A stretch of DNA of 64,000 nt from Bacillota bacterium (lineage in GTDB: Bacteria > Bacillota > Dehalobacteriia > UBA4068 > UBA4997), in contig JAETNY010000006.1 in NCBI GenBank assembly GCA_021771915.1, positions 124,001 through 188,000 of the forward strand. The letters run 5' to 3'. Position numbers and translations under genes: made by a program. Positions 25,650 to 29,259 of this stretch are shown here, piece by piece. The notes beneath the pieces were generated by a model. It saw only the letters and a list, made by a program, of their open reading frames with translations. It did no database searches and was not told the origin of the DNA. The number at the start of each line of letters is the position of its first letter. Position 1 is the stretch's first letter.

Positions 25650-25943
25650 ATGACCCAAAATGAACTTATCAATGAAAATATCATCACTCTGCTGGACGAC
25701 AACGATGAGGCGATTGATTTTGAGATAATCGAAATGCTGGAGATAGCCGGCAAACGCTATGCCTTTTTGCTGCCGCTTAATGATGAAAACGCTGATGCTG
25801 AAGCAGAAGAAGACGAAGCTGTGATTTTCCGTATCGACACCAATGAGGACGGCGAGGAAATTTTTGCCTATATCGAAGATGACCAGGAATGGGAAATGGT
25901 TGTTGATACCTACAATGATATGCTGTTTGAAGACGAAGATTAA
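25650..25943 (+). CDS. DUF1292 (YrzB-like) acidic protein
   Basis: 97-residue very acidic protein with the DUF1292 pattern: IITLLDDNDEAIDFEIIEM, GKRYAFLLPL, EAVIFRI and EEIFAYIEDDQEWEMV. The family follows ruvX widely in Firmicutes; its function is unknown. It ends the plus-strand operon just before a strong terminator. Confidence 0.9.
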   Translation: MTQNELINENIITLLDDNDEAIDFEIIEMLEIAGKRYAFLLPLNDENADAEAEEDEAVIFRIDTNEDGEEIFAYIEDDQEWEMVVDTYNDMLFEDED

Positions 25944-25950
25944 ATTTTTT

Positions 25951-25996
25951 CATAGAAAAACCCCAGCCTATTTTAACGGTTGGGGTTTTTCTATAT
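25951..25996 (+). terminator. Bidirectional terminator between DUF1292 gene and Rpn-type gene
   Basis: AGAAAAACCCCAGCC pairs with GGTTGGGGTTTTTCT around a nine-base loop. A- and T-runs on both sides allow use by both converging genes. Confidence 0.85.
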
Positions 25997-26003
25997 GAAA
26001 TTT

Positions 26004-26819
26004 TTAAGCGCTTTTTTCATTTTGCAGCTGCTTGACCTCATCAATAGACAAACCAGAAATATTGATTATTTCTTCTAACGAATATTTTCCAGCAGAAAGC
26101 ATACGGCGAGCCGCTTCTTTTTTTTCTTCTCGTTGTCCTTCTTTTCTTCCTTCTCGCTGTCCGCGCGTTAAAATTTCATCTACAACACTACTCATAATTT
26201 CGACCTCCTTTTTATCCTCTTTCAAAAACCTTACTTTATCCGCTAATGTTTTGTATTTCATATCATCTGCTTTTTTGCATGAAAAATCATGCATTAACCA
26301 GCCCAGCGGTGTATCATCACGATAGGCTCCATTAACATATATTATATGCGCGCCATCGTTAAATATCTCATTTGTATCTAAATTGCAGCGCTCAATTCTG
26401 TATAGCGGTAAACCTTTCTTCATAACATCATTTTCGGTAATAAAAATAATGTAGGTTTCCGGCAAATCATCAAAATCGGAGCCTTTTTGCATTATTTTGC
26501 TGTCCAGCAAACTGCTGTGATAACGAGCACGCTTTTCACCAGCGCCTTTATCGGCGCGCTGAATTTCAATATTATATTTTTTGCCGGTGCTGTCGGTGGC
26601 TAAAACGTCCAGCCGTACCGAACGGTTTCGCAGATTAGCCAAAAAGTCTTGCGTGTGGGCCTCTGTAACCTGTAAATCATCTTTATTCAAAATAATACGC
26701 AGTACTAATTCAACGCAGGGAATATCATCTTCAAAGCATTTTGTCATGAAAATGTCGTCCAGCAAACAAAAGTTTTGTATGTACTCCAAATTGGTCTGGT
26801 TTATAGTTTCTTTTGCCAA
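26004..26819 (-). CDS. Rpn family recombination-promoting nuclease / PD-(D/E)XK transposase-like protein
   Basis: About 271 residues. The core has DDIFMTKCF, SVRLDVLATDSTGKKYNIEIQ (PD-(D/E)XK core: Asp, then Glu-x-Gln) and YHSSLLDSKIMQKG, typical of the Rpn (former transposase_31) family of DNA nucleases spread among gut bacteria. The C-terminal tail has REGRKEGQREEKKEAARR repeats and a helix-turn-helix-like ending SLEEIINISGLSIDEV. A TTG at 26819 with GCAGGTG upstream is the likely start; an upstream ATG at 26870 lacks a site. It stands alone in an AT-rich island and has a C-terminal fragment copy at 28234-28440 in inverted orientation. Confidence 0.85.
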   Translation of the reverse strand: MAKETINQTNLEYIQNFCLLDDIFMTKCFEDDIPCVELVLRIILNKDDLQVTEAHTQDFLANLRNRSVRLDVLATDSTGKKYNIEIQRADKGAGEKRARYHSSLLDSKIMQKGSDFDDLPETYIIFITENDVMKKGLPLYRIERCNLDTNEIFNDGAHIIYVNGAYRDDTPLGWLMHDFSCKKADDMKYKTLADKVRFLKEDKKEVEIMSSVVDEILTRGQREGRKEGQREEKKEAARRMLSAGKYSLEEIINISGLSIDEVKQLQNEKSA

Positions 26820-26919
26820 ATAAATCACCTGCCTTGTATTTATTCTAACATCATTTATATTTTTTTGCAATGTTTTTTGCTTAAAACAAGTTCAAATTCT
26901 TGATTGGTAAATTTTAAGA

Positions 26920-26957
26920 AAATAGAACCATTTCTTTTTAAGAAATGGTTCTATTTT
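26920..26957 (-). terminator. Terminator after HTH gene copy 1
   Basis: Perfect 17-base arms (26920-26936 and 26940-26956, core CCATTTCTT/AAGAAATGG) flanked by A and T tracts. Its central 21 bases recur in reverse complement inside the hairpin at 28452-28495. Confidence 0.75.
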
Positions 26958-27212
26958 TTATGTTTCTGGATTAAATTTTAGTAATAAATATGGTTCAATC
27001 TCTAAAACAGTTGCTATATTGAATAGTGTTTCTATTGATATACCTCTAAACATATTAGGCGCTTCAATAGAACCCATATGCTGCCTGCTAATTCCCACCA
27101 TTTGCGCTAATTGTTCTTGCGTTAAATGGCGTTTTTTACGATAATAAGCAATGGCAAAGGATAGATTTTGATATCTGATAGTATTGTCGAAAAGTCGTTT
27201 CTCCTTTGACAC
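26958..27212 (-). CDS. XRE-type helix-turn-helix regulator, copy 1
   Basis: 84-residue small DNA-binding protein. HTH region about residues 30-52 is LTQEQLAQMVGISRQHMGSI. It starts at GTG with GAGGTG upstream. It is about 85 percent identical by eye to the gene at 27386-27640, and the upstream region (CGACTATTGACGTGTAA) is shared too. This marks a tandem duplication of a regulator with a divergent partner gene. Such small repressors usually control their own divergent promoter. Confidence 0.85.
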   Translation of the reverse strand: MSKEKRLFDNTIRYQNLSFAIAYYRKKRHLTQEQLAQMVGISRQHMGSIEAPNMFRGISIETLFNIATVLEIEPYLLLKFNPET

Positions 27213-27349
27213 AATATCACCTCAATAATATATTTTATACAAAATTGAGAAATAATTAAATGCTTTATTTTACGACTATTGACGTGTAACAGATAATAAT
27301 ATGTAATTACATAGAAAAAAATAGTATTGTAACTAGAGGAGTAGAAAGA

Positions 27350-27406
27350 ATGAACAACTTAAAATCAGTTTTTAATCTGTATATTTTACATCTCTGGATT
27401 GAATTT
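27350..27406 (+). pseudogene. Remnant of the divergent partner gene, copy 1
   Basis: An 18-codon frame with AGAGGAG upstream. Its DNA aligns with an internal part of the gene at 27745-28137 (AGAAAGAA, TTAAA, TTTTAATCTGT, then TATT), while the rest of that gene is missing. It reads as a deletion remnant between the first regulator copy and the second. It overlaps the 3' end of copy 2 of the HTH gene. Confidence 0.55.
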
Positions 27407-27640
27407 TAGCAGTATACATGGTTCAATCTCCAAAACACAGGCTATATTGAATAATGTATCTAGTGATAATCCTCTAAACATATTAGGCGCTTCAATAGAA
27501 CCCATATGCTGTCTGCTTATTCCTGCCATTTCTGCTAACTGTTCTTGGCTTAAATGGCGTTTTTTACGATAATAAGCAATAGCAAAGGATAGATTTTGAT
27601 ATCTATTAGTATGGTCAAAAAGCCATCTTTCTTTCCCCAC
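27386..27640 (-). CDS. XRE-type helix-turn-helix regulator, copy 2
   Basis: 84 residues, HTH region LSQEQLAEMAGISRQHMGSI, paralogous to 26958-27212. GTG start with GAGGTG five bases upstream, the same arrangement as copy 1. It is divergent from the intact partner gene at 27745, with about 100 bases between them holding TTGACG and AT-rich -10-like sequence. Confidence 0.85.
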   Translation of the reverse strand: MGKERWLFDHTNRYQNLSFAIAYYRKKRHLSQEQLAEMAGISRQHMGSIEAPNMFRGLSLDTLFNIACVLEIEPCILLKFNPEM

Positions 27641-27744
27641 ATTATCACCTCTATAATATATTGTATATAAAATTAAGAAAATATTAAATACTCTGTTTCA
27701 CGACTATTGACGTGTAATAAATAACAATATATAATTGTATAGAG

Positions 27745-28137
27745 GTGAAAAATATTGAAAGAGAGGCGATTGTCGTGCATGAATGTGTGAAAAAAGATTT
27801 ACAGGGCAGCATTGAGCGGAAAGTTGAAGAGATAGTATTGGAATTGTCGGAGGACAAAGAAAGAACGCCATTAAACCAGCTTTTAATCTGTGTATTAAAG
27901 GCGCAAGTAGAAATTTATAAGGAATTGGATAAGCTGGAGGGTTTGGCCGAAAATTTGCAAAGTAAAAAAGCAAAAATTGATAGAAATTCCAAGGATTTTC
28001 TGACCCTCCGCGGAGTTTTGGTCGAAATGTGGATAAATAATATTATGGCCGTACGTTTGAATTGCGTTGATGAGGACGTTCTAAATGAAATGATAAAAAT
28101 GGACGAAAGAATGATAGAAATTGAAAATAAAATCTAA
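27745..28137 (+). CDS. Charged helical protein divergent from HTH copy 2, unknown function
   Basis: Up to 130 residues, almost all alpha-helical and rich in Lys, Glu and Leu (IERKVEEIVLELSEDKERTP, LDKLEGLAENLQSKKAKIDR), probably coiled-coil. No family recognised. The GTG at 27745 lies inside its own AGAGGTG, so the GTG at 27775 preceded by AGAGG is a better start. As the divergent neighbour of an XRE regulator it may be the regulated partner, possibly part of a toxin-antitoxin-like or plasmid-type module; this is inference only. Confidence 0.55.
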   Translation: MKNIEREAIVVHECVKKDLQGSIERKVEEIVLELSEDKERTPLNQLLICVLKAQVEIYKELDKLEGLAENLQSKKAKIDRNSKDFLTLRGVLVEMWINNIMAVRLNCVDEDVLNEMIKMDERMIEIENKI

Positions 28138-28233
28138 TAAACATATGAATAAAATTATCAGGCCAAAGTTATTTATTTTATATTTAAAATATAAATAATG
28201 TGTGATAAAAAATAAATTATTCATTTAATAATA

Positions 28234-28440
28234 TTGGCTGATAAAGTAAGGTTTTTGAAAGAGGACAAAAAGGAGGCCGAGATTATGAGTAGTGTTGTAG
28301 ATGAAATGTTAAAAGAAGGAAAAAAAGAAGTGGCTCGCCGTTTGCTGACCAATGGTAAACTTAGCATTGAGGAGATTGCTGAATATTCCGGCTTGTCTAT
28401 TGATGAGGTCAAGCAGCTGCAAAATGAAAAAAGCGCTTAA
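28234..28440 (+). pseudogene. C-terminal fragment of a second Rpn-family nuclease gene
   Basis: 68 codons nearly identical in sequence to the C-terminus of 26004-26819 (LADKVRFLKEDKKE, EIMSSVVDE, GLSIDEVKQLQNEKSA) but lacking the REGQREE repeats and the whole nuclease core. There is no ribosome-binding site before its TTG. It is in the opposite orientation to the complete gene, so the two form an inverted repeat around the HTH module. Confidence 0.8.
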
Positions 28441-28451
28441 AAATTTTATAT

Positions 28452-28495
28452 AAAAGATATAGCCATTTCTTAAAAAGAAATGGCTATATCTTTTA
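28452..28495 (+). terminator. Terminator after the Rpn fragment
   Basis: AAAGATATAGCCATTTCTT pairs with AAGAAATGGCTATATCTTT around a four-base loop, then T-rich sequence. Could also serve nusB from the other side. Confidence 0.75.
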
Positions 28496-28557
28496 TTATA
28501 AAACTAAAGTTTATGTTATAACCGCATATTATCCACAAATTATGCGACAATCGGCAA

Positions 28558-29259
28558 TCAGAACAAATCTTCCGGTTCCGGAGCAATTTTGTCCGCTTCT
28601 GTAATATCCACTTTACGAATTTTGCGAAAAGTTTTAACTGGTTCTGGCGCTGGCTGCAATTTACTGCGTCTGGCATAATTTTTATCTGCCTTTTTGCGCG
28701 CCATCACCATGGCGTCCTCCGCCGCCTTGTCCGCCCAGGCCTGCTCTGCCGCTTTGGCAATATCCGCGGCCGCGGCCTGTTGCTGCGCCTCTGCCTGCTG
28801 TAAACGCTCGTCAGCCTGACGCATCTGAACCTCATCAAGCTGATAATCGGCCGCTTTATCCGTCAAAACCGCATGCACAAACTTGTCCAAAACCGCATTA
28901 ATAAAACTTGGCGAATCATCAGTACCAAACTCTCGCGCCAGTTCAATCGCCTCATCAATTACAATCGGCGGCGGACTATCCGGCAGATATTTCAGCTCAT
29001 ACATGGACAAATGCAGTAAAAGCCTGTCCACCGAGCATAAACGCTCATATTGCCAGCCCTTTGCCAAACGGCGAATATATTGCTCTGTTTCAAAATGTTT
29101 CTGCCAGGCTCCTTGCGCCAAAACCACGGCAAAAGCTGCCGATTTCTGCGGCAGTTCCGCTTGCGCCAAAGTATGCTCCGCCATTTTCCAATCATTCGCG
29201 CCCTCAATCAACTGAAACAGCATCTGAAAAGCTGCTTCTCGCGCCTTATGCCTGCTCAA
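28558..29259 (-). CDS. nusB: Transcription antitermination factor NusB with long C-terminal extension
   Basis: Component of rRNA antitermination complexes. Residues 1-140 are a normal NusB: MSRHKAREAAFQMLFQ, SVDRLLLHLSMYELKYLP and AIELAREFGTDDSPSFINAV. The family is usually 130-150 residues; here about 90 more follow, Ala/Gln-rich helical (AQQQAAAADIAKAAEQAW), then basic, then acidic. It overlaps the DUF2273 gene by four bases and closes the asp23-amaP-DUF2273-nusB run. The frame is open with no sign of a frameshift. Confidence 0.95.
   Translation of the reverse strand: MSRHKAREAAFQMLFQLIEGANDWKMAEHTLAQAELPQKSAAFAVVLAQGAWQKHFETEQYIRRLAKGWQYERLCSVDRLLLHLSMYELKYLPDSPPPIVIDEAIELAREFGTDDSPSFINAVLDKFVHAVLTDKAADYQLDEVQMRQADERLQQAEAQQQAAAADIAKAAEQAWADKAAEDAMVMARKKADKNYARRSKLQPAPEPVKTFRKIRKVDITEADKIAPEPEDLF

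Follow-up and report, generated by a model that had tools for sequence, protein, structure and literature searches.

Two tandem XRE regulator genes and a single divergent partner: a duplicated module beside a stray RpnS-like ORF in a Bacillota genome

Why does a bacterial genome carry two closely similar helix-turn-helix (HTH) regulator genes side by side, when only one of them faces an intact divergent partner gene, and what might such a module do? These questions are raised by a locus in the window analyzed here, a 64,000-nucleotide stretch of a Bacillota genome (assembly GCA_021771915.1, contig JAETNY010000006.1, positions 124,001 to 188,000). Two minus-strand genes, XRE1 (26958–27212, without an intact partner) and XRE2 (27386–27640), each encode an 84-aa regulator of the HTH_3/Cro-C1 type (PF01381, E = 2.2e-9 and 2.7e-9; 37.6 and 37.3 bits, both above the gathering cut-off of 23). 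The initial annotation proposed that an HTH module had been duplicated and that the effector-like gene of one copy had then been deleted, as in toxin–antitoxin or immunity-type modules. The two-copy, colinear similarity bears out the duplication. Specifically, a repeat search of the window returned a 300-nt repeat, 26952–27251 against 27380–27679, 85% identical at a spacing of 428, which takes in the minus-strand HTH gene with its upstream intergenic DNA, and local alignment extends the similarity without interruption as far as about 27330 and, if one gap is admitted, to 27340/27766. The HTH coding sequences are identical at 216 of 255 positions (85%); the intergenic region of unit 1 (27213–27329, homologous to 27641–27757) matches that of unit 2 at 90 of 113 positions (80%) over 27213–27325. 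The similarity thus extends through the intergenic DNA and into the partner fragment described below, which excludes a resemblance confined to the HTH genes, but the description of the HTH genes and their upstream regions as near-identical was overstated, the two proteins sharing 82% identity. In the source genome the XRE family has five matches and the partner one.

The scrap of a partner gene reported in unit 1 is real, and its DNA matches the inside of the intact gene, but it lies at about 27330–27385 on the plus strand (equivalent to about 27841–27896) rather than at 27350–27406. The segment 27316–27385 is identical to 27827–27896, within the partner gene, at 53 of 70 positions; its local alignment score is 72, whereas 500 mononucleotide-shuffled versions of 27300–27390 scored at most 47 and 2000 first-order Markov sequences modeled on 27316–27385 at most 44. 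The best register switches from +428 to +511 near 27320–27330, the two registers overlapping around a shared TATTG, and the end of the remnant coincides with the start of unit 2 (27380–27385), while 27386–27406 is the 3′ end of XRE2. Read directly in the frame of the partner, the remnant contains several stops. An ATG frame at 27350–27409 was rejected as the scrap, being out of the partner's frame and running into the 3′ end of XRE2.

Equivalent bases are spaced by 511 in the partner gene and by 428 in the HTH gene, a difference of 83, and from these values we infer an order of events. First, a segment of 511 bp, reaching from immediately beyond the HTH stop codon to roughly codon 41 of the partner gene, would have been duplicated in tandem, giving an extra repressor and operator beside a partner gene cut short. 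The short shared TATTG would then have been the site of an 83-bp deletion that took away the ribosome-binding site and start of the truncated gene. The start signals of the two HTH genes are indeed alike, as first described, but those of the partner are absent from unit 1. The unit 1 partner was therefore probably truncated at birth and never whole, rather than deleted later: this is the simplest account because the fragment ends exactly at the start of unit 2 and because the spacings of 511, 428, and 83 fit. Loss of the effector-like gene alone explains these breakpoints less simply, although the same arrangement could have arisen if a whole unit was first duplicated and a larger deletion then chanced to stop at the unit boundary. 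The Jukes–Cantor-corrected divergence of the fragment is about 0.29 (p = 17/70), about half the synonymous divergence of the HTH pair (dS 0.58). Such a ratio would follow if constraint had been absent from the fragment's own lineage only, although the comparison is weak at 70 sites. That dS is high for a tandem pair, and the sister genomes G004 and G005 lack the accessory site, carrying two other genes at the orthologous place, so one may ask whether there was any local duplication, or whether one unit is instead a homologous but diverged module brought in beside the other by recombination. Such a non-local origin appears improbable, as the units exactly adjoin, the relation 511 − 428 = 83 makes a second donor unneeded, and the two HTH copies share 82% identity, far above the 62% of the next-nearest copy found. 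Duplication with a truncated neighbor is ordinary genome evolution, yet this instance can be read unusually well, down to both breakpoints and the subsequent deletion, and it offers a clean test case for why a partnerless regulator is kept.

Comparison of XRE1 with XRE2 gave 21 synonymous changes over 52.2 sites and 18 nonsynonymous changes over 199.8 sites (dS 0.58, dN 0.096, dN/dS 0.17; Fisher p 4e-7). When the 15 amino acid differences were polarized with G004 as outgroup, 4 were assigned to XRE1 and 5 to XRE2, with 6 ambiguous. Both regulators are thus under purifying selection and are kept.

The control region was retained with them. An operator-like palindrome of 16 bp, ACGACTATTGACGTGT, lies at 27272–27287 in unit 1 and again at 27700–27715 in unit 2, the copies being identical at 16 of 16 positions, and a search of the window at up to three mismatches found only these two sites, both exact (shuffle mean 0.15). 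The second copy overlaps the −35 element (TTGACG, 27707) of a good partner promoter, TTGACG-17-TATAAT at 27707–27735, which a promoter scan listed in unit 2 only; promoter-like sites across the region numbered 10 against 9.7 in shuffles, so that there is no excess of them. In unit 1 the operator is intact and the corresponding −10 element has changed from TATAAT to TGTAAT, losing the second-position A. The 12-mer ACGACTATTGAC is invariant (12/12) at the homologous site of G004, where synonymous sites are saturated; in the source genome it occurs solely at the two unit sites, and across the nine genomes of the genus its four matches, in three genomes, fall at both units, on contig C48 of G004 (G004:C48), and on contig C36 of G005 (G005:C36). 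Only these places, and not the number of matches, are informative, because a reversed control pattern gave 11. Conservation of the operator could in part be conservation of the promoter, since the partner −35 lies within it. Operator architecture also varies, with the palindrome of the window standing against three CGTGTTT direct repeats at the homologous site of G004:C48 (L077 6959–7007), spaced by exactly 21 bp. At G005:C36 the same operator precedes an XRE of quite different sequence (27% identity), which would be awkward if the operator were specific to the XRE of the window.

The intact divergent partner gene is real as well, but probably encodes 120 aa from GTG 27775 (27775–28137, plus strand) rather than 130 aa from GTG 27745, because the later start aligns with the starts of both sister-species homologs. 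Its ribosome-binding site reads GAGAGG in the window and AGGAGG in G004. The product is predicted to be all-helical; a single-sequence structure model shows four helices at a mean pLDDT of 64, a low confidence that says little about the fold. The family is unnamed, and searches of Pfam, PHROGs, PADLOC-DB, and NCBIfam gave nothing beyond chance-level E-values. The suggestion that the partner–XRE pairing be sought in other genomes was fruitful: relatives at 23–28% identity, each divergent from an XRE gene, are present in both sisters, at G004:C48 and at contig C40 of G005. The pair in G004 is 59–62% identical to that of the window in the XRE and 24–28% in the partner, while in G005 the partner relative is paired with another XRE type. 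By a single-sequence search the partner was found in two of nine genus genomes (the source genome and G004), by a two-row profile in three of 10 family genomes, and by a three-row profile in four of 35 order genomes, one of which was judged unrelated. That match, in G028 (E 0.006), lay inside a 737-residue frame and was dropped. Among 23 XRE loci screened for divergent ORFs, this partner appeared only at unit 2 of the source genome and in G004; other small divergent ORFs stood beside the XRE loci L012, L043, and L048. Beyond the genus, no partner relative was detected in phages or plasmids (tblastn), genome contigs, or viral contigs, the last including a scan with the XRE alignment. XRE relatives themselves were matched on six phage records and on eight plasmid-collection records (Monoglobus, Subdoligranulum); in three of four plasmid-collection records examined, all Monoglobus, further HTH genes adjoin the XRE relative, and no annotated divergent partner was present in those records. 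Rfam gave no match over 25900–28600.

The layout of an XRE gene divergent from a small ORF is not limited to this partner family. A second family, of 84 aa, to which belongs the small ORF lying opposite an XRE gene in divergent orientation on contig C14 of G005 (G005:C14), has seven matches in four of 35 order genomes, and a divergent XRE-like ORF accompanies six of the seven, one confirmed by Pfam and the others judged by eye; the place without one is L080. Homology between the 84-aa and 120-aa families was considered and rejected (hhalign probability 0.2%). That an XRE gene recurs divergent from an unnamed, small, helical protein suggests a class of small regulated proteins that has received little description.

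A second partnerless site bears on the persistence of the regulators. The site at G005:C36 (L087 1480–1880) is syntenic with G004:C48 (L077 6581–7320), the flanks matching at 85% and 94%, and the G004 stretch that holds the partner gene (L077 6585–6973) is missing from it save for 2 bases. The control region is kept (77% over 87 bp), while the XRE reading frame differs from the XRE of G004:C48 (27% identity). In this sister, an operator and some XRE therefore appear to persist without the partner, which lends independent support to regulators outliving their partners. Persistence of the regulator, as put forward in the initial annotation, is supported.

We put the probability at roughly 60% that the locus is a compact accessory module in which an 84-aa XRE repressor and a divergent, ~120-aa helical protein share a control region, and which underwent a 511-bp tandem duplication and an 83-bp deletion with the extra repressor kept. 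The repressor would most likely bind the palindrome overlapping the partner −35, shutting the partner off and tuning its own expression; the partner, when made, would act by protein–protein contact, most likely antagonizing the repressor or serving as a small effector; and the extra repressor, retained by selection, could act on both operators. This reading of a repressor with a small helical antagonist or effector fits the locus better than the toxin–antitoxin or immunity reading of the initial annotation, under which the partner is a toxin, the XRE its antitoxin, and deletion of only the toxin copy from a completely duplicated unit left an orphan antitoxin. In favor of the latter, antitoxins often carry XRE domains, the partner diverges more rapidly than the XRE between the source genome and G004, and a regulator kept where the partner is absent is seen twice; the best NCBIfam match of the XRE is TIGR03070 (Y4mF/HipB-like), although far below its cut-off (31 against 71.65 bits). 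Nevertheless, a toxin–antitoxin pair is unlikely here: the genes are divergent rather than cotranscribed in all three species in which the pair was found, the partner matches no toxin or defense family in the four collections searched, one partner family is paired in G004 and G005 with XREs of different types, and the remnant stops at the duplication junction.

The surroundings add a nuclease to the locus. Downstream of XRE1 lies a minus-strand gene of the Rpn family of PD-(D/E)XK nucleases (RpnL, 26004–26870; TIGR01784 at 76.2 bits against a cut-off of 52.1, PF12784 at 46.8 against 27.4). Beyond its Rpn profile, it shows the other marks of an Rpn toxin–antitoxin gene: AAAAAGGAGG stands 8 nt before an internal ATG, sequence evidence for an internal RpnS start, and a 12-bp tandem repeat at 26126–26162 corresponds to variable four-residue repeats. 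Internal RpnS genes, four-residue repeats, and tandem duplication of rpn regions have been described (PMC10327210), as have RpnS copies that stand apart from the parent gene, downstream of rpnE and of rpnC. In the window, a 51-aa orphan RpnS-like ORF (28285–28440, plus strand) reproduces the Rpn C-terminal domain in the orientation opposite to the full gene, with 73% identity to Rpn residues 198–288 and one TAA upstream; the repeat arms formed by the rpn 3′ end and the inverted copy are 92–97% complementary. Its ATG (28285) retains the AAGGAGG of the internal RpnS start, and it is 12 residues shorter than the internal 63-aa RpnS, the missing residues falling in the repeat region. Perfect hairpins lie at 26919–26957, between XRE1 and rpn (z −9.4, likely a bidirectional terminator), and at 28450–28496, after RpnS (z −9.3); they are alike, with a AAGAAATGG core, and bracket the XRE/partner/RpnS stretch. 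Flanking the island are what we take, from their sequences, to be a DUF1292-type gene and nusB, and the orthologous site between these genes in G004 and G005 has two other genes and no Rpn/XRE island. The replacing genes (L072, L073), which stand where the window has the island (25943–28558), encode 324 or 337 aa, and 292 aa.

The orphan RpnS and the partner gene share a strand, the scan found no terminator-like site between them, and a hairpin follows RpnS, an arrangement that could mean that both genes form one XRE-controlled operon through which the module gates the Rpn antitoxin. The order at G005:C14, an XRE gene divergent from a small helical ORF and then an orphan RpnS overlapping that ORF by 11 bp, would agree with this. 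Such an operon is doubtful, however, given the gap of ~147 bp between partner and rpnS in the window, the lack of detectable homology between the G005:C14 small ORF and the partner (the hhalign result above), and the convergent orientation of a third orphan RpnS, on contig C60 of G004, with its XRE neighbor. The G005:C14 locus (L075 338–1178) is in itself a case of window-like gene order built around an unrelated 84-aa helical ORF. Orphan RpnS ORFs were found in all three genus genomes with Rpn matches, each within ~1 kb of an XRE gene, a count made with an XRE model built partly from those same genes; at other Rpn loci of G004 and G005, an XRE gene stood in the examined flanks in two of nine cases. 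The proximity is a lead only, because XRE genes are common in these genomes. A broader, quite unlikely version holds that XRE/small-helical modules in the genus capture orphan RpnS genes into a regulated transcript, the window and G005:C14 being two separate instances, so that the state of the XRE would set the level of Rpn antitoxin and arm or disarm the Rpn nucleases; if this is true, duplication of the XRE would alter the dosage of an RpnS-controlling switch. The neighboring orphan RpnS is nonetheless the most interesting lead at this locus, as it raises the question of how free Rpn antitoxin is controlled. Literature searches returned no paper on Rpn together with XRE, on such modules, or on orphan antitoxins arising by tandem duplication, and the module with a stray nuclease-antitoxin gene beside it is little described.

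Set beside known systems, the window shares with the described Rpn genes-within-genes (PMC10327210) an internal ribosome-binding site and ATG, four-residue repeats, and a separate RpnS copy nearby, and it differs in that its orphan RpnS is inverted, is parted from rpn by the XRE module, and falls short of the internal RpnS by 12 aa, the length of three four-residue repeats. The module itself is of a known kind, a repressor with a divergent small gene. As in type II toxin–antitoxin systems with XRE antitoxins, an XRE gene lies beside a small, fast-changing gene and the pairing is modular, but the window genes are divergent and the partner matches no toxin family in the collections searched. Like phage CI/Cro, the window has divergent genes around shared operators, with one XRE repressor, but its second gene encodes no HTH detectable with Pfam, and no partner relative occurred in the phage collection or the viral contigs. 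The SinR/SinI system offers a further comparison. SinR has a C-terminal oligomerization domain, for which the 84-aa XRE has no room, and SinI is a small helical antagonist; the SinR/SinI layout is not divergent, unlike that of the window, and a profile of three partners matched no SinI chain among PDB sequences at E up to 5. The closest solved relative of the window XRE is the SinR DNA-binding domain (3qq6 and 5tn0, E ~4e-6 with the XRE profile), and a small helical antagonist serves as the working model for the partner.
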